Shown here piece after piece: positions 26,021-38,315 of a stretch of 38,315 nucleotides of DNA. Where the stretch lies: contig JANXAC010000015.1 of the NCBI GenBank assembly GCA_025061835.1, positions 1-38,315 of the forward strand. The letters run 5' to 3'. The notes under the pieces were generated by a model. It was not told the origin of the DNA. It did no database searches and worked only from the letters and a program-made list of their open reading frames with translations. Source of the DNA: Spirochaetota bacterium. Lineage in GTDB: Bacteria > Spirochaetota > Brevinematia > DTOW01. Made by a program: the position numbers and the translations under genes. Position 1 is the first letter of the stretch. Each line of letters begins with the position of its first letter.

Positions 26021-27208
26021 ATGTTAAAGAAAATTTCACTCGTAGGGCTGTTATTAGCAGTATGTATAAGTGGCTTCTCTGTCATAAATAACTACGAACA
26101 CTTATACCTCTATCCATACCCATACTCTTATGGCATCGGGAAGGCTATTAACTCAATAGATGCACTAGATATTGAAGGATTTCTATTTAATCCAGGTCTA
26201 GCGAGTTCAAAGTTCTCAATAAAAGTAACATCAGTATCCTTAATGTTAAATACTACAGGAATAAACACCTTAAGTGATCTATCAAGTGTATTAGGTGCTG
26301 ATACAACAAAAGTAGTAAGTTATGCTTTTGATCTGATAGGCAAACCTATCAATCTAGGTGCATATCTTGGCGTAGTGTCACTTAATATACCTATAAGTGA
26401 TTTCAATCTAGCTTTAGGTATATTAAACCTAAATCTTACTCCATTCATTGAGTTTCATAATCCTCTCTCATCCGCCGGTTTTTTAGATACAAGACTTTCA
26501 AGCATATTCAGTGGTTACATTGGATTAAATTACTCTTTTAAAAATATACTTACGGGAGACAAGGATCTTGACAAGTATCTAAGTCAATTGTCCGTAGGAT
26601 TAAACTTGAAGATATACCTAGCAGGAGGTATTGAGAAAAACTTCGGTATAGATGAACTCATACAGGGTAATGTCAATATATCAGGTGAGTCATTACTATC
26701 AAACCTACTGACTCCTCGGATTGCTCCTGACTTTGGAATACTATACAAGATACCTACCGATGGACAGAACGGAGAAAAACAAAGAGTAAACATAGGTATA
26801 TCCGCTAAAGATATAGGTGGAATCATTCTCAACAACAAAGTACTAATTCCTACAACATTCAACTTAGGCGCTTCTTACTTCATAGACTTATCTGAGATGA
26901 TAGGGAGTTCTCTCGTATTTAAAAAGAATTATATAGCACTGGATCTACACGACATATTCTTTCAAAGAAGAGATAAAGACTTCTTCAAAAGAGTTCATAT
27001 AGGGATACACAGCGAAATATTGAATTTCAATGACCTTATAAACTTTAGACTAGGATTAGGTATCAATCAGGGTTATCCTTCCTTCGGATTTGGCTTAAAA
27101 ATTGTAGCCCTTGACATATCATTCTCTGGATACACAGAAGAATTAGGCGTTTATGCAGGACAAGACCCCGACACAAGATATGTTCTATCTGTATCTTTAG
27201 GATACTAA
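26021..27208 (+). CDS. Outer-membrane beta-barrel protein, FadL/TraF-like
   Basis: 395 residues with a signal peptide (MLKKISLVGLLLAVCISGFS). The N-terminal IEGFLFNPGLASS resembles the 'NPA' segment of FadL/PorV/TraF-type barrels. Many alternating strands follow (FKKNYIALDLHDIFFQ, INFRLGLGINQGYPSFGFGLKIV), and the protein ends in LSVSLGY with a terminal aromatic. A GGAGG-type site precedes the ATG. It is the second gene of a unit with the EF-hand lipoprotein and is followed by a hairpin. It may transport hydrophobic molecules or assist surface export; this is inference from the fold. Confidence 0.8.
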   Translation: MLKKISLVGLLLAVCISGFSVINNYEHLYLYPYPYSYGIGKAINSIDALDIEGFLFNPGLASSKFSIKVTSVSLMLNTTGINTLSDLSSVLGADTTKVVSYAFDLIGKPINLGAYLGVVSLNIPISDFNLALGILNLNLTPFIEFHNPLSSAGFLDTRLSSIFSGYIGLNYSFKNILTGDKDLDKYLSQLSVGLNLKIYLAGGIEKNFGIDELIQGNVNISGESLLSNLLTPRIAPDFGILYKIPTDGQNGEKQRVNIGISAKDIGGIILNNKVLIPTTFNLGASYFIDLSEMIGSSLVFKKNYIALDLHDIFFQRRDKDFFKRVHIGIHSEILNFNDLINFRLGLGINQGYPSFGFGLKIVALDISFSGYTEELGVYAGQDPDTRYVLSVSLGY

Positions 27209-30089: not shown

Positions 30090-31400
30090 CTACTTGCCCT
30101 TCTGTTTGGTATCCTTCTTCTTATCCTTATCTTTGTCCTTTTGTTCTTCCTTTGGCTGTTCTACCGTTGTCTGCTGAGGTTTCAACTCTTCTACCTGTTG
30201 TGTTTGTTGCTCTTTCGGTTGGGTATCACTACTTTGAGTTTGGGTATCAACACCTAGTTCTTTCATCTGTTTCTTTCTCTTCTCAAGCTCTTCCATAAAC
30301 TGTAGTTCTCTTATCTTCTCCTCAGTGTAAGCAAATGCACTCCTTGGCAGCCTATACCTGTAAACCAAACTAAATGAATGCGATAGGTCACCCAATCCTG
30401 CTAGCATATTAGGCATAACTCCAACTGAATAATCCATATTGACCTCGTGCTCGTCCGCAAATACATATCCAAATGTTAGCCCAAAGCTCACATTAGCAAA
30501 CTGGTAAAGCCCAAACTCATAACCTAGTCTAAATCCTATTATCTTATTCAAGAACCACGTCTCTGAACCTAGGTGGTATGTCAAGTCCAACTCTCTGTTG
30601 TCACCCGGCTCTCTCTCTGTCTGTGTTACTCCAGCACCTATCATCACATCTTCAAAAACATCAAAGAAGCTACCTACTATCCAGTTAGCACCAAATTTTA
30701 TTTTTCTCGGAAGTGTGGATTCATTACCTTCAATTATCGCAGTATTTGGCTTGATAAGGTTCTGAATAGCAAAACCTAGTCTTATGGTATAACTAAAGTC
30801 ATAGGTAACACCTACATCCAAACCAAAACCCCAAGCACTCAATCTATCACCTAAATATGGATTAACTTGAGTATCTGGGTTAGGAACTAGTCCTAGATTG
30901 TAAACATTCAGTTTAATACCCGCTGATATCCTTGCACCCTTTGATATGAAATCATCAAGATTTTTACCATAACTAAAGCTAATAGCCTGCTCATAATACA
31001 AATCTAAAACATTGAACCTTGAATACGAAAAACCAATAGCACCATCTCTAAAGAAATATGGGACATTGCCACCCATTACAAGACCTGCTAGATAGTCCAT
31101 TCCCGCATACCCTCTATTACTGAAAGGTATCACTCCAAAGATACTAAACATATTCATACTGGTATCGTCTAGATAGCCTATCGGAAGCCCAAAATTCACC
31201 CTACCTTCTATATTTTTAGTATTCGCTATCAAAGCAGGATTATATTCCATTCCATTAATACCATCAAATATTCCAAACATAGCATTACCGAAACCCTTTG
31301 CCCTAACGCTAGTGCCTCTGTCAAGGTATTCAAAAGCAGCCTCAGCGTATATAGAGATAAGAAACACAAACAAAATGATCCCAAAAGCTAATCTCTTCAT
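30090..31400 (-). CDS. PorV/FadL-like (UPF0164-type) outer-membrane barrel protein with charged tail
   Basis: 436 residues: signal peptide (MKRLAFGIILFVFLISIYAEA), then RAKGFGNAMFGIFDGINGMEYNPALIA, the hatch-like segment with the 'NPA' motif shared by FadL, PorV and treponemal UPF0164 proteins. A barrel follows (about residues 60-355), then a coiled segment and a C-terminal tail of about 60 residues rich in Q, E, K and D (KDKDKDKKKDTKQKGK). PorV proteins in other phyla help surface export of proteins with C-terminal sorting domains. Its ATG lies 12 bases after the giant FlgD-Ig protein gene, with GGAGG in the gap, so the two are one unit. Confidence 0.8.
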   Translation of the reverse strand: MKRLAFGIILFVFLISIYAEAAFEYLDRGTSVRAKGFGNAMFGIFDGINGMEYNPALIANTKNIEGRVNFGLPIGYLDDTSMNMFSIFGVIPFSNRGYAGMDYLAGLVMGGNVPYFFRDGAIGFSYSRFNVLDLYYEQAISFSYGKNLDDFISKGARISAGIKLNVYNLGLVPNPDTQVNPYLGDRLSAWGFGLDVGVTYDFSYTIRLGFAIQNLIKPNTAIIEGNESTLPRKIKFGANWIVGSFFDVFEDVMIGAGVTQTEREPGDNRELDLTYHLGSETWFLNKIIGFRLGYEFGLYQFANVSFGLTFGYVFADEHEVNMDYSVGVMPNMLAGLGDLSHSFSLVYRYRLPRSAFAYTEEKIRELQFMEELEKRKKQMKELGVDTQTQSSDTQPKEQQTQQVEELKPQQTTVEQPKEEQKDKDKDKKKDTKQKGK

Positions 31401-31412
31401 ACAATACCTCCA

Positions 31413-34400
31413 CTACTTAACGAGGATAACAGTCCCTCTATACCCAACTGTATCCCCTGCTACAACTACAAATATATAAACACCATTCCTGACATATACT
31501 CCATCATGATCCTTACCATCCCAATAGACCTCTCCTTGTCCGAAGCTACCATCACCTTCTAGTTCTCTGACCAACTTACCACCCATATCATATATCCTTA
31601 CCTTATACTTATCGTAAGACTTATCTAACTCAAAGGTAATTTTCAAAACTCCATACCTACTATCAACATTCGCATTTTTCACATTAGGAGTAAATGGATT
31701 TGGTGAAGCTTTTACATTTCTTACAATTCCTTCCGTTTTAACACTACCTCCATCACCCATAACTGTATAGACTCTGTGTAGATATCTAGTCTTTATATAC
31801 ACAAAGTTTTTGTCCTTATCAACTTTACCACCTATTCTCACCCACTCCTTAGTAGTATCTTTCCAGTACCATACGCTCAATTTATCCTCACTCCAACCTT
31901 GGGAAGATATATAATTCTCATCGTAGTAGAACTTGAGTATAATATCACTCTTGAGAGGATTTTCAAATATATAATCACCGGGTATAGTTCTCATAACCAA
32001 CTCATAAACCTTCATAGAGTTTATGTCATTGAACCTACCGGCATTTTTGGTATCTATCGCTCCTTTCTGTTCTTCTGCGGTAGCATTTCTAACTATGATG
32101 TCAACAGAGAAGTCATTAAGTAATGCTCCTGGTGGAACTATTATTTCAGTTCTACCATCATCCAAACTAGAAACCTTCTGTTCTTCTCTAGCCTCTGTGC
32201 TAAACGGTGCATTGCTCATAACGATCATGCTGATATTACTAATCCTATTAGGAGATACAACAATAGGACCGACTCTTTGAGACCTGTACTTGCTCCCAGT
32301 AACAAGAATATCGTACTCTCCTGGTGGGACGAAGTCTAACCTGTACCTACCAATACTGACCTGATTTGTAATTCCTGCTAGAGAAGTAGAACTGACTATA
32401 TCAGCACCAAAAATGTTAGTAGCAACCACATCCGTTCCTCTGTATAGCAATCTAACACTTAGATCCTGATGATACGGCTTTATGGTACCAAAGAGTCTAC
32501 CAAAGTTAGCATAAAGGATCTTAAACTTAGAGGTTTCCGTTGTGGAAACGTTAACACTTTCGTAATCCTCTGCACCATCAAAGTATACCTCAGCTCTCAG
32601 GTCATTGGTAGTATTTATTATGTTAGGATTGGCAGAAGAATCATAAGCTATATCAATGAGTAATATTTCGAATCTTCTCGTTGGTATTAAAGTCGACAGA
32701 TACAAACTACCATTAGAGATTACCCAAGAACTCACATAACCGTTTGAACTTCGAATACCAACAACGGTGTAGTTAGAGCTATGGTAAGGCATTCTTATAT
32801 TGAGAATGGGATAGCTGTAGGAGTTATTGAGGATCCTTATAGCAATAGTATGGTTAGTGTCTATGCTATACGCAACATCAGTTGGTTTTATGATGTAGTA
32901 GTCCGGCGGCGTCTCTGGGAAATCAAATGCTAACGTCAATGTTTGACCCATCGGCGGGTCTATGAACTGCTCAACACCTAAGCCGTTATCGTAGTAAACT
33001 TTTAACCTAACGTTAGTCTTGAAGTTGTAGTAGTTCTCAAACACAAACCACCCTATATCGCTCTGCCCCGACTGAATACCATCATTGGTGTAGTGTATGA
33101 ACACAACATTACTTGCGTTAGAGATGACAGTATAGCCTAAGTTATTACTTAGGACCACAAAGTTGGTTATACCCTCAGGCATTACAACTCTTACATATCT
33201 AACATTATTCATCAGATCACCAGTATTGGTAAATGATATCCTAACAGTATTTGTAGAAGGAACACCAAAAGTCGTGGAAAGTAATACATACTTGTTTATC
33301 AAACTAGCATATCCTTGTGCTGGAGGCATAATAAACGATATATTACTCTCAACAACGGAAGGAGTCACATATCCAACTCCCTCACTAACCTTAAACAAAA
33401 CTGAAGTATTCGTAACTCCCAAGTTAAATACATCCTGTGCCTCTACAGTAACCAGATCGTAATCACCCCTAGAGATCCCACTAGTATACGTCACATAAAC
33501 ATTCGTAACATTACTTACGCTAGTTATTGCATCTGGTTTAGAACTGCTCACAGAAACAACATTAGTAAATGGCCATCTAAGAGATATGCTAAAGTGCCTA
33601 ACCTTCGCATCACCGCTTGTGTTGTTCTCAATCTTGAATACAATCGTGTTCGTTCTAAGGAACGTACTTATTACCCTACTAATTACCTCAACAGTAGGTA
33701 GTGACACAAACCTTAGATTCATATCAAAAATTCCTGTAGGTATGATACCTGAATTGGTTATACCATTATACGCAGTTCCAGTTATATCAAAAGAGCTACC
33801 TGCAGAGTTCGTGTTAGAAACCTTTATCGAGATATAATCTACAAAACCAGATGGCAGATTGTTGTATAGTAGCGTAAGAACTCCCGAAGAGTAAGATATA
33901 TTAGTAGCGTACTCGCTAGAAACGTTAGCAACATCAAATCCTAGCCTCAAAGCTAACGGAATATTCAAATCTAGTCTAGTTATCCTATTATCACCACTAC
34001 CTCCATTTGACAAAACGACAACCACAGTTGGATTAGGGTTAGAGTAATATATATCTCTATACAGCAGCCTAGTGTAGGCATATGGAGGGCTCGAAACATA
34101 GTAAACAACGTTCGTACCACCAACAACTCTACCTCTCACGAACTTTCCACCACTAGTATTAAACATAGCAAGTAGGTTAAAGCTAGCATTGGTATCACCT
34201 ATCACCCATGTATCCCTAGCATGTATGTAGATAATATCACTACTACCATAGGGTAGTCCTGAAGAATTGGTATACTTAATAACAATCCTATTGGTTATTA
34301 TCTGAATAATACTATTTCCAAACGTGTTACTTACTACCATATCATTCGTTATCAACACAAATGGATAAGATATGACCAAATTAGTTGCGTTATGACCCGT

Positions 34401-37400
34401 ATTACCAGCATTGTCTACAAAAATCCTATAAGTCACAAAATCTGTCTCAAACGCAGAAACAACATTTGGCTCCACTCTATAATTAACCCTGTATGGTGGA
34501 TTCGCTATAGCATACCTAAGATCACCACTGACTAATTCGCTAGCATTCGTGTAGTAAATGTTACTTGGGTAGTTAGCAACCTGAACAACAAGATTAGTAG
34601 AGTAAATGATGTTATTGTCAACGCTATCATAAGCCGTAAAGTAAATTACATCCCTTTGACCTCCAGGAAGGTTAGTATTACTGACAAAGTAGTTTATAAA
34701 TATCATGTTACTTGAAGAATGGTATTGTATTGAAGCAGGTATCCTGTTAGAGAGTATAACTACATTGGTAACTATATTGGGTAGATAAACCCTAACCCAA
34801 TAAACATTATTAAGCCTCTCACCATAGTTAGTAAGCTCAAGTACCATATCTACCTCATCCAGGTCAAAGTAGACATCGTTTGGAACTAGCTTTCCATACA
34901 CTCTAGACGGTGGCAACTTAACAAAGTTAGAAGTACTACCTATTACAGGATAGGCAAAGTTGTTGTTACTATACCCATCATCGTAATCAACACCAACATT
35001 CCACAAAACATTAGTCTCGCCATAATCAAAGTTATCTATAGCAGTTATCTGTATAGAGTGTATCTTTGAACCTGTAAGCCTTTCAGCGTTGAAGGAGACA
35101 ATGATCCTTCTATTATTCGTATCCACAGAGATAGTTGGTAAAGCAGAAAGAGTTGTAGGAGTAGAGTTTATAATTGATATATTACTTATGTTGAATATAC
35201 TTGGCACCCCTACAGCAATTCTTCTTATCTCTTTACTACCACTATTTAAACCATTGGTAATAGACAGCAGCAAGATATTAGTATTCATTGTCGTTGAAAT
35301 CTCAAAAGGCGTTAGTCTAACAGAAGGTCGTTCTGTTATATACAGTTTCTTATCATTCGTTGAGTATATGATATTAGTACCCTCTTCCCAGCCATCCGGT
35401 GTGTAATCTTGACCGTTACTCGCTATCACCACAAACTCTCCATTTGTTGGAGTAGAATAAGTATTTGAGAACATTACCATAACCTCATCAACATATCCCG
35501 CTGGCAAGTTAGTCCCGACATTAATGTAGTTTATCGTAAAGTTAGTAGGAGTAACAACTACACCACCGCTAGCAACTATGCTAGAACTCACTCCCAAAAT
35601 TCTATTCGTGAAGACTGGCGGTATAATAACTCTCACTCTATACAGCCTATTAGAACCAAACCCAGCGTTCGTGAGTATAAGCTTTAAATTTACATTCGTA
35701 GGAGTAGAGGATGTATACACAACCTGACTATCAAACTTTGCTCCTAAGAATGTTCTTGGCATCTTAAAGCTCATAGACCAGTTACCATTCGTTATCTGTT
35801 GGTATGCTTTCTGGTTAGAAGCAGTAACTACAAACTGTTTGTTAAGGAGAGAAGTCTCAACAAAATCAACCATATAGAACCTTATAGTATCCACTCCGCC
35901 TGGTATTAGATTGGTTCCATCATTTTGATAGTCAATGAAGATATAGTTACCAGATGAGATAAATCTAGCATACAGAGAATCATTAACAATCACATCACTA
36001 CTTACTCCAAAAACATTTGTCGAAACATCAGTAGGTATATCTATCCTAATTCTAAAGATCCTATTGCCAGAACCGGTCGAGGCACCCAGATTTGACACTT
36101 TAACAAATAGGACATTCGTTATAAGCGAAGCATCCAACTCATTCAAACCTACATAGGAGTTAGTGTTTGTATTGTATATTGAAACCCAAGCCATCAAGTT
36201 AGGCCACTCTACATACAGTAGTTGTCTTTCCTGAGTTGATTTGTCTCTCGCATTCGTCTCACCTCTATTGTTACTAACGTAAGTTTGTAGTGTTAGCACA
36301 GTAGGAGTGAAATAATTCGTGTTACTCAGAGTTATTAGTATGGCATCACCATAGGATGGATTTTCGTAAACCGATCTAAGCCCAACTCCCTCATTATCAT
36401 AATGTAGAATTATGTTATTACCACTAATTTGAATATTAGCAGTGTTATTCAACCAGCTTAATCCAGGTATTAGTGAAACATTTCTTATAACAAAACCTGT
36501 CGGTATTGATATTCTTGCCTTTCTTAGGTTGTTTCCAGGAGCACCTGTATTGAATATGAAGTTAGTGAATGAAAAACTAACTGTAGTTGTATCTATTCTG
36601 TTGGTTATTATGTACGCCTCCGCATCTGGGTCAGGGGGAGTTATAGTAACAGACCAGGAGTCAGGAGAATACTCAAACCCTTGAACCAATCCTTCCGTAT
36701 TACCATTATCAGCATAAACCACAAAATCAGCAATCACAAGTGGATCGTCATCACCTCTCCTGTGAACAGTAGTGAAATATATAGTATCGTTACTAGAAGA
36801 CCTCAAAGGCTTTGATGAGTTAGTATAATCAACAAATATACCAAACCCGCGACCTACTATGTTTGTTGTATATATTCTTGCAGGGAAATACTGCGAGTTG
36901 TTGGAGAACCCCCAAGCATGGTTGGTTATATAGTTTGTGTCAAAGAGAATAAACATTCTTATAATGTCGTTCCCAAGAGGCCCATCATTGATCACGGTGT
37001 ATGCAAATGTATTAGTTTTAACAGTGTTATTTATTTTCGGTGGATATATTGATGCTTTAGCCTGAGGAGATATAATTATAACTTCAGTTCCCTGACTGCG
37101 ATATGTTGAATTAGTATTTGTTCCCGCTAAGAAAGCAGAATTACCAAACCTATCGTATATTATAACAGGCCAGATGAAATTTGAAGTCCTTATACCTATC
37201 GGTAGGTCAGGTGTTTGTGTTATGAAAAATTCAATCCTATCTAGTCCATTTTCACCTGGCAAGAAAGTACCCGCACTTTGATAGTTTATCCTTATCCTAT
37301 TAGTTCCAGAGACATTAACTAGAGAGATAAAACCAGAAGGTACTATCAGAGAATTGAAGGCATTACTTAGGACAAACCCTTGAGGAACAACTATATCCAC

Positions 37401-38315
37401 CATCGCTATATCAGGGTTGTTTGATATTCCACTCGTTGATAGGTTGTAGAATACGTTATACAGATCACTACCTTCATACATAGGTACCGGAGAGTAGTTC
37501 AAGCCAGAGAAGATGTATGGTTTGTTGTATACCTTTACAGAAAGACCACTTCCAACCTCTCTAGCTTTCTTCCAACCTGTTGTGGCATACAGTATGTCAG
37601 TACCAGTTCCCGGAAGTTTATTGTTATCAAGGAATACCTGAAACTTGTAATTACCATAAATATCAGGAGTAGAAGGAGTAGCTAACCTAAACGAAACTCT
37701 TATTGTCCTGTTTGGCGTCGTTGAACGAATTATAGTATTATCCGATGCACTAACTTTTCTAAACCTTATAAGCAATGAATTAGGATCAGAAGGTAAAACT
37801 CTAACTAAAAACTGATTTGCAGATGGCTCGCCACTGAATATCCTATTGTTCGTATTAGCACCAGTTATAAAATGTGTCTCAACCCACACCGCATTCGTAT
37901 CCCACGCAGGAAAACCATCAGGTTTCACTATCTTTATCTCACCTACTCCACTATCGCTTGCAGTAATATCGTTTGAAATAACTATCGTAAATATGTTGGT
38001 TGTACCTACAACTGTCTCATAAGGTGTTATGTAAGCAACAGAGTTGCTAGTAACAGTTCTAATAGTAAAATCATCCCAGTATGCTTCTTGAGATTCACTT
38101 ACGAATACCAAGCTCTCATGCCCAAACTCAACAACTAAGTTAGAATACCAACCAACCGTCGTTTCACCCATCTTATACCAAGAACCAGCACTAGCATAAG
38201 GTTGAGGATTGAAGTAGAAATAAACCCTGCTACCATCGTGCACTACTTTAATACCAAAAACAGAAGTATTAGCATAAGTAGTTCCAGCATTACCCCCGTA
38301 GAAGTTCATGTTAAG
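31413..38315 (-). CDS. Giant repeat-rich surface protein with C-terminal FlgD-Ig-like domain (partial, N-terminus outside window)
   Basis: The frame is open to the right edge, so at least 2300 residues are present and the start is missing. First comes a concanavalin A-like segment ending YWDDFTIRT. About 12 diverged tandem repeats of roughly 150 residues follow, each with a unit like FINY-N-GTNLPGG-DVI-F and rich in N, T and S. Near residues 1935-2030 is a carboxypeptidase-regulatory-like domain (GRLFGTIKPY...VPPGEYDILV), then a ZU5-like part (IIVPPGAL). The last 100 residues are a FlgD-Ig/sorting-type domain: ASPNPFTPN, VRIYDMGGKLVREL, VYWDGKDHDG, NGVYIFVV. Probably exported and surface-exposed; adhesion or a surface layer is inferred. 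The PorV-like gene follows. Confidence 0.85.
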   Translation of the reverse strand, partial: LNMNFYGGNAGTTYANTSVFGIKVVHDGSRVYFYFNPQPYASAGSWYKMGETTVGWYSNLVVEFGHESLVFVSESQEAYWDDFTIRTVTSNSVAYITPYETVVGTTNIFTIVISNDITASDSGVGEIKIVKPDGFPAWDTNAVWVETHFITGANTNNRIFSGEPSANQFLVRVLPSDPNSLLIRFRKVSASDNTIIRSTTPNRTIRVSFRLATPSTPDIYGNYKFQVFLDNNKLPGTGTDILYATTGWKKAREVGSGLSVKVYNKPYIFSGLNYSPVPMYEGSDLYNVFYNLSTSGISNNPDIAMVDIVVPQGFVLSNAFNSLIVPSGFISLVNVSGTNRIRINYQSAGTFLPGENGLDRIEFFITQTPDLPIGIRTSNFIWPVIIYDRFGNSAFLAGTNTNSTYRSQGTEVIIISPQAKASIYPPKINNTVKTNTFAYTVINDGPLGNDIIRMFILFDTNYITNHAWGFSNNSQYFPARIYTTNIVGRGFGIFVDYTNSSKPLRSSSNDTIYFTTVHRRGDDDPLVIADFVVYADNGNTEGLVQGFEYSPDSWSVTITPPDPDAEAYIITNRIDTTTVSFSFTNFIFNTGAPGNNLRKARISIPTGFVIRNVSLIPGLSWLNNTANIQISGNNIILHYDNEGVGLRSVYENPSYGDAILITLSNTNYFTPTVLTLQTYVSNNRGETNARDKSTQERQLLYVEWPNLMAWVSIYNTNTNSYVGLNELDASLITNVLFVKVSNLGASTGSGNRIFRIRIDIPTDVSTNVFGVSSDVIVNDSLYARFISSGNYIFIDYQNDGTNLIPGGVDTIRFYMVDFVETSLLNKQFVVTASNQKAYQQITNGNWSMSFKMPRTFLGAKFDSQVVYTSSTPTNVNLKLILTNAGFGSNRLYRVRVIIPPVFTNRILGVSSSIVASGGVVVTPTNFTINYINVGTNLPAGYVDEVMVMFSNTYSTPTNGEFVVIASNGQDYTPDGWEEGTNIIYSTNDKKLYITERPSVRLTPFEISTTMNTNILLLSITNGLNSGSKEIRRIAVGVPSIFNISNISIINSTPTTLSALPTISVDTNNRRIIVSFNAERLTGSKIHSIQITAIDNFDYGETNVLWNVGVDYDDGYSNNNFAYPVIGSTSNFVKLPPSRVYGKLVPNDVYFDLDEVDMVLELTNYGERLNNVYWVRVYLPNIVTNVVILSNRIPASIQYHSSSNMIFINYFVSNTNLPGGQRDVIYFTAYDSVDNNIIYSTNLVVQVANYPSNIYYTNASELVSGDLRYAIANPPYRVNYRVEPNVVSAFETDFVTYRIFVDNAGNTGHNATNLVISYPFVLITNDMVVSNTFGNSIIQIITNRIVIKYTNSSGLPYGSSDIIYIHARDTWVIGDTNASFNLLAMFNTSGGKFVRGRVVGGTNVVYYVSSPPYAYTRLLYRDIYYSNPNPTVVVVLSNGGSGDNRITRLDLNIPLALRLGFDVANVSSEYATNISYSSGVLTLLYNNLPSGFVDYISIKVSNTNSAGSSFDITGTAYNGITNSGIIPTGIFDMNLRFVSLPTVEVISRVISTFLRTNTIVFKIENNTSGDAKVRHFSISLRWPFTNVVSVSSSKPDAITSVSNVTNVYVTYTSGISRGDYDLVTVEAQDVFNLGVTNTSVLFKVSEGVGYVTPSVVESNISFIMPPAQGYASLINKYVLLSTTFGVPSTNTVRISFTNTGDLMNNVRYVRVVMPEGITNFVVLSNNLGYTVISNASNVVFIHYTNDGIQSGQSDIGWFVFENYYNFKTNVRLKVYYDNGLGVEQFIDPPMGQTLTLAFDFPETPPDYYIIKPTDVAYSIDTNHTIAIRILNNSYSYPILNIRMPYHSSNYTVVGIRSSNGYVSSWVISNGSLYLSTLIPTRRFEILLIDIAYDSSANPNIINTTNDLRAEVYFDGAEDYESVNVSTTETSKFKILYANFGRLFGTIKPYHQDLSVRLLYRGTDVVATNIFGADIVSSTSLAGITNQVSIGRYRLDFVPPGEYDILVTGSKYRSQRVGPIVVSPNRISNISMIVMSNAPFSTEAREEQKVSSLDDGRTEIIVPPGALLNDFSVDIIVRNATAEEQKGAIDTKNAGRFNDINSMKVYELVMRTIPGDYIFENPLKSDIILKFYYDENYISSQGWSEDKLSVWYWKDTTKEWVRIGGKVDKDKNFVYIKTRYLHRVYTVMGDGGSVKTEGIVRNVKASPNPFTPNVKNANVDSRYGVLKITFELDKSYDKYKVRIYDMGGKLVRELEGDGSFGQGEVYWDGKDHDGVYVRNGVYIFVVVAGDTVGYRGTVILVK

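Follow-up and report, generated by a model that had tools for sequence, protein, structure and literature searches.

The locus analysed here raises the question of whether a giant repeat protein ending in a FlgD-Ig-like domain, and the PorV-like barrel encoded directly after it, belong to a protein export pathway of the type IX kind. Our reading, to which we assign a probability of roughly 0.7, is that many Spirochaetota have a type IX-like export pathway and that the giant and the barrel are one of its substrate–shuttle pairs.

The giant protein and the barrel encoded behind it

The window, that is, the whole stretch of 38,315 nucleotides that was analysed, is the entire contig JANXAC010000015.1 (C15) of genome G000, an assembly of 1.8 Mb in 55 contigs that is about 96% complete. 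Relatives of this genome in a collection of named genomes are Brevinematales/Spirochaetes MAGs and the window encodes a homologue of Borrelia P83/100, both in keeping with the spirochaete-like host that had been suspected from the DNA. The features of the pair are collected in Table 1.

Table 1 Features of the giant–barrel unit in the window
Feature	Position	Strand	Basis or remark
FadL/PorV-like 14-strand outer-membrane barrel, candidate shuttle/anchor, 436 aa	30090..31400	-	TraF_2, PorV_fam, model
Giant B-type repeat protein, 2300 aa	31413..38315	-	ORF open at contig end; 5' end missing
C-terminal FlgD-Ig / type IX-like sorting tail	31455..31643	-	Residues 2225-2287; FlgD_ig above cut-off
CarboxypepD_reg-like stretch	32229..32354	-	Residues 1988-2029; Pfam PF13620 E=4e-4, below cut-off
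Twelve diverged Ig-like repeats, ~105 aa each	32586..37499	-	Residues 273-1910; iterated profile search

Full-length giants of this type (giant B) in relatives have ~2550 aa, and the window protein is 76% identical along its length to the giant B of a genome of its own genus (G001; L039, 2545 aa), whose signal-peptide-like N-terminus lies in the region missing from the truncated window protein. A profile of a single repeat finds 12 copies in the window giant and in nearly every full-length giant of the class, the exceptions being two copies with 13 repeats in one genome. The giants, of which there are two types, A and B, hold 12 (rarely 13) diverged repeats over four families at ~30% identity, a constancy that contrasts with adhesins, where repeat number varies. 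A Foldseek search with the C-terminal 649 aa of the giant returned numerous Ig-like chains with low TM-scores, an S-layer protein ranking first.

The C-terminal tail matches FlgD_ig (PF13860) with E=3.9e-10 and 40 bits, above the gathering cut-off of 27. Once extracted, the same tail scores 25.4 against the CHU_C "Type IX secretion signal domain", just below its cut-off of 27; CHU_C is matched by 15 of 15 tails, the one tail detailed being this sub-cut-off match. When a profile of the tails was compared with the PDB, FlgD was the best solved relative and the C-terminus of PorU was also found (E=1e-4). A tail confined to the window protein had been named in the initial annotation as an outcome that would speak against the module; it is not seen, since TIGR04183 matches four G000 proteins above its cut-off, two on contig C3 and one each on C16 and C1. 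As judged by sequence, the genome therefore contains sorting-domain substrates, which are among the criteria for a type IX system. On C16 (L037:2217-4521), a 263-aa protein with a type IX-like tail is encoded immediately ahead of one of 503 aa whose N-terminus is weakly BatA-like.

The barrel ORF begins 12 bp past the stop codon of giant B. It matches TraF_2 above the cut-off (36.6 versus 25) and the PorV/PorQ family (NF033709, PorV_fam) with E=2.5e-9 and 37.2 bits, under the curated cut-off of 90, while several relatives have PorV_fam barrels above the cut-off adjoining tails. Neither the window barrel nor the SprA-like protein described below is filed in the PorV or SprA equivalog families, because both stay under the cut-offs. 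An AlphaFold model of low confidence (pLDDT 56) predicts 14 strands after an N-terminal hatch-like stretch. In a Foldseek search with this model, FadL and its relatives came first by E-value and the highest query TM-scores fell to the T9SS translocon entries 8gl6_F (0.41) and 6h3i_F (0.40); a sequence profile of the barrels found no relative among solved structures. The initial annotation, which had described a giant repeat protein with a FlgD-Ig C-terminus resembling sorting domains, paired with a FadL/PorV-like barrel, is borne out in each of these parts by the ORFs, the domain matches and the conserved order and strand of the two genes. The window also encodes a second, weakly PorV_fam-like barrel at 26021-27208 on the plus strand (E=6.7e-6, below the cut-off) and, immediately upstream of it, an ORF of 276 aa that has no annotation.

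Among relatives, the giant–barrel pair is kept in order and on the same strand. In families f3 and f4 the gene order is giant A, giant B, barrel, and the same order can be pieced together for the genus of G000, in which giant B of one genome (G001) has the end of a tail-bearing gene close upstream and the barrel gene behind it, and another genome (G002) has giants A and B side by side. In a quick tree with long branches, the A giants group together and so do the B giants, both with support of 100, so that the duplication is older than the families sampled and A and B are, by sequence, ancient paralogues. Family f2 departs from this arrangement, with the A–B pair present in two clusters within one single-contig genome and the barrel located elsewhere, away from the giants. 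One genome that is 86% complete (G015) has giants and no barrel match, and family f5 has neither giants nor barrel. A barrel occurring without the giant in most relatives had been named as the outcome that would speak against the pairing; it was not seen, and no giant-less barrel was found in the class.

Variants of the unit occur as well. Contig C3 of G000 carries a second unit (L035, G000:C3:43000-62000), in which two giants (2198 aa and 2377 aa), whose tails both exceed the TIGR04183 cut-off, precede a PorV_fam barrel of 544 aa; this barrel has a weak FlgD_ig match of its own. In the assemblies of G013 (L048) and G005 (L053), giant A is broken up into two ORFs. A genome of the same phylum from outside the class (G019, 3.6 Mb) has ~31 PorV_fam-like matches, 20 sorting-tail matches and some 15 adjacent tail/barrel pairs, the barrel lying downstream in nearly all. 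It also encodes a 4185-aa giant with 24 repeats, for which an origin by fusion of A and B is unsupported because its N- and C-terminal parts each match both A and B.

A SprA/Sov-like protein outside the window

The initial annotation had seen no type IX core gene, and for the window this holds. For the genome it does not: contig C12 (G000:C12:27476-33094; L079:5474-11158) encodes a 1894-aa SprA/Sov-like protein. Its recognition depends on the model used. Pfam SprA_N has no match in 21 relatives, a result that the later finding of the protein turned into a false negative. The NCBIfam model surface_SprA (TIGR04189) matches the C12 protein in three stretches with E=3.8e-11 and 40.9 bits, compared with a curated cut-off of 200, and reaches 1e-23 to 1e-24 on two other members from Brevinematia and 9e-42 on a member from the wider spirochaetes. 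Across 247 Spirochaetota genomes this model gives significant matches in 81, none above the curated cut-off; what is matched is mostly one ORF of about 1800-2060 aa, and the model often aligns to it in several successive segments. At the level of the family, the SprA model matched 13 of 18 members with a best E of 1e-48; the member from G006 was unmatched in hmmscan, yet a genome search found segments of it.

That these proteins form one family is supported by comparisons between its two subgroups. A profile built from six members outside Brevinematia, run against 372 ORFs and their reversed decoys, recovered all eleven Brevinematia members at E 1e-88 to 1e-127 and, besides these, only the G019 member (E<=1e-88); all remaining ORFs and all decoys stayed unmatched. 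Alignment of the Brevinematia subgroup with the rest by hhalign gave 100% probability and 6e-119 over 1635 columns, nearly the full length. When the joint profile was compared with the PDB, SprA was the sole significant molecule (E=1.4e-25), with residues 155-678 aligned to SprA 152-885 and the DDFE...W.L.S motif in register. The two subgroup profiles and the C12 protein, each used alone, did not reach SprA in the PDB, so that for G000 the link to SprA rests on the family model and on transitivity. On this sequence evidence the C12 protein is a SprA/Sov homologue and not a filed member of the equivalog, and a counterpart of the SprA/Sov translocon that a T9SS calls for is present as a homologue scoring far below the curated cut-off. 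The idea that the gene comes from a contaminating Bacteroidota contig was rejected, since genomes of the same genus carry it at 63-69% identity and every f1-f4 genome has a diverged version. In family f2 (L082, L083, L085) a protein of 927-932 aa is encoded close upstream of the SprA-like gene, and in G006 the C-terminal part of this protein matches Omp85 (E=1e-8).

Two other type IX components gave negative results in searches run without a positive-control genome: PorU-type Peptidase_C25 was not found in G000 and had two sub-cut-off matches in 21 genomes, and GldM was found in 0 of 247 Spirochaetota genomes. Because the SprA_N null proved to be a false negative, these absences may mislead.

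Distribution, gene order and alternative readings

Within the class, 14 genomes of families f1-f4 and four of f5 were compared. The SprA-like protein, the giants and TIGR04183-type tails occur in 14 of the 14 and in none of the four, the barrel in 13 of 14 and again in none of the four. With the joint profile, a SprA-like protein is found in 91 of the 247 Spirochaetota genomes at E<=1e-10; it is present in 48 of the 50 genomes with an above-cut-off PorV_fam barrel versus 43 of the 197 others (Fisher p=3e-23, the genomes being related and the counts not independent). For one of the two PorV_fam genomes that lack it, other members of the same genus have a SprA-like protein. The survey of gene order covered 21 genomes, with 75 matches to tails and 72 to barrels. 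The barrel lies directly downstream of the tail on the same strand in 25 pairs (about 14 or 15 of them from G019 alone), upstream in one and on the opposite strand in none; the window pair, whose tail was recognised by FlgD_ig, is additional to the 25.

These data bear on the possibility that the barrel simply conducts hydrophobic solutes, as an ordinary FadL-type channel would, and stands behind the giant by an accident of operon structure, while the giant reaches the surface by other means. The Foldseek ranking by E-value is what such a channel would give, many Spirochaetota have a single PorV_fam-like barrel and no SprA-like match, and in f2 the barrel is unlinked to the giants. A solute channel would not, however, be expected to follow tails at many loci with a single polarity, including those of G019, or to be missing together with the giants from f5, and we regard this explanation as unlikely. 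A second possibility is that barrel and tail suffice for export and that the SprA-like protein has another job. The failure to find PorU and GldM, in searches that had no positive control, fits such a module, whereas all class members with the module also have the SprA-like protein and the four without the module have no SprA-like protein either; moreover, no 14-strand FadL-type barrel is known to pass folded proteins, which further disfavours this alternative and makes it, in our view, quite improbable. Finally, that the giants are periplasmic or flagella-associated and that their tails reflect FlgD-like assembly in spirochaete periplasmic flagella is suggested by FlgD being the best solved relative of the tail profile, but is very improbable given that all 15 tails match CHU_C (below the cut-off in the one detailed), that tails adjoin outer-membrane barrels and that no flagellar gene is among the window proteins scanned.

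We therefore return to the type IX-related pathway, which is favoured over a module lacking the core by the SprA-like gene on C12 and by its tracking of the module across the phylum. Of the idea of a surface-export module put forward in the initial annotation, the part that joins tail and barrel stands, and the part that reads the pair as a simpler module with no type IX core gives way to the C12 gene; the system may still be simpler in the sense of having no PorU and no PorLM-type motor.

A probable type IX-like pathway in spirochaetes and its known counterparts

Sequence analysis shows the tail, the family of the barrel, a SprA-like protein, the operon-like arrangement of the genes, the joint occurrence of these parts and the downstream position of the barrel, which together suggest the following model. 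Giants A and B would cross the inner membrane by Sec; at the outer membrane, the FlgD-Ig tail would be used by the diverged SprA/Sov translocon, through which the giants would pass; the PorV-family barrel encoded just downstream would, in the manner of SprF with SprB in Flavobacterium, collect the emerging tail and might anchor the giant at the cell surface, leaving the giants to act, perhaps, as long surface fibres. We propose these steps, from Sec export by way of the SprA-like protein to the barrel, because the locus has the same anatomy as type B substrates in F. johnsoniae and a homologue of the translocon is present. By this analogy, the giant–barrel pair probably works like a type IX substrate–shuttle pair and, on the sequence evidence, spirochaetes probably also have an export route of the type IX kind.

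Type B substrates of F. johnsoniae, SprB among them, have a PorP/SprF shuttle gene directly downstream that is required for secretion (PMC12618676), and the gene order in the window and its relatives resembles this arrangement. The FadL-family shuttle is thought to receive the tail from the SprA translocon and to act as an anchor (PMC12618676, PMC9143113), and SprB has been found bound to SprF (PMC9143113). The lack of a PorU match is no contradiction to this model, since in P. gingivalis a type B complex formed independently of PorU (PMC9143113). More tentatively, and at somewhat less than even odds, the Spirochaetota may have a reduced type IX-like system comprising a diverged SprA, FlgD-Ig tails and many substrate-specific PorV-family shuttles, each encoded beside its own substrate, and dispensing with PorU and with a PorL/PorM-type motor.

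If our reading is correct, the presence of a SprA-like translocon and PorV shuttles in roughly one third of the Spirochaetota genomes sampled would widen the range of the T9SS, which PMC4793230 and further abstracts that state it limit to Bacteroidetes or its superphylum; open-licence literature, represented mostly by titles and abstract openings, yielded no report of type IX secretion in spirochaetes. It would also suggest which T9SS parts are essential and give spirochaetes a route for surface export. Family f5, which belongs to the same class and has none of the parts, offers a natural comparison.

Three known systems place the pair. With the FadL/TraF_2/PorV-PorQ superfamily the window barrel shares its 14 predicted strands and N-terminal hatch-like stretch; it differs in scoring under the NCBIfam PorV_fam cut-off, and its role as a partner of the giant is putative. 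With the T9SS (SprA/Sov, PorV, PorU, PorK-N) the spirochaetes share a SprA-like translocon, PorV-family barrels and sorting tails, whereas their SprA-like protein is highly diverged, mostly 1860-2060 aa long and not recognised by SprA_N, searches without a positive control detected neither PorU nor GldM, and spirochaetes lie outside the superphylum to which the papers mentioned above confine the system. SprB–SprF of Flavobacterium johnsoniae differs in that the spirochaete tail is of the FlgD-Ig/CHU_C kind, the barrel resembles PorV more closely than PorP/SprF, and the spirochaete pair, with its 12 diverged repeats and its putative function, belongs to another phylum. Both nevertheless comprise a giant repeat protein of surface type with a C-terminal sorting domain and a FadL-family barrel gene directly after it, and the spirochaete tail–barrel pairs share with SprB–SprF the arrangement of substrate first and barrel second.
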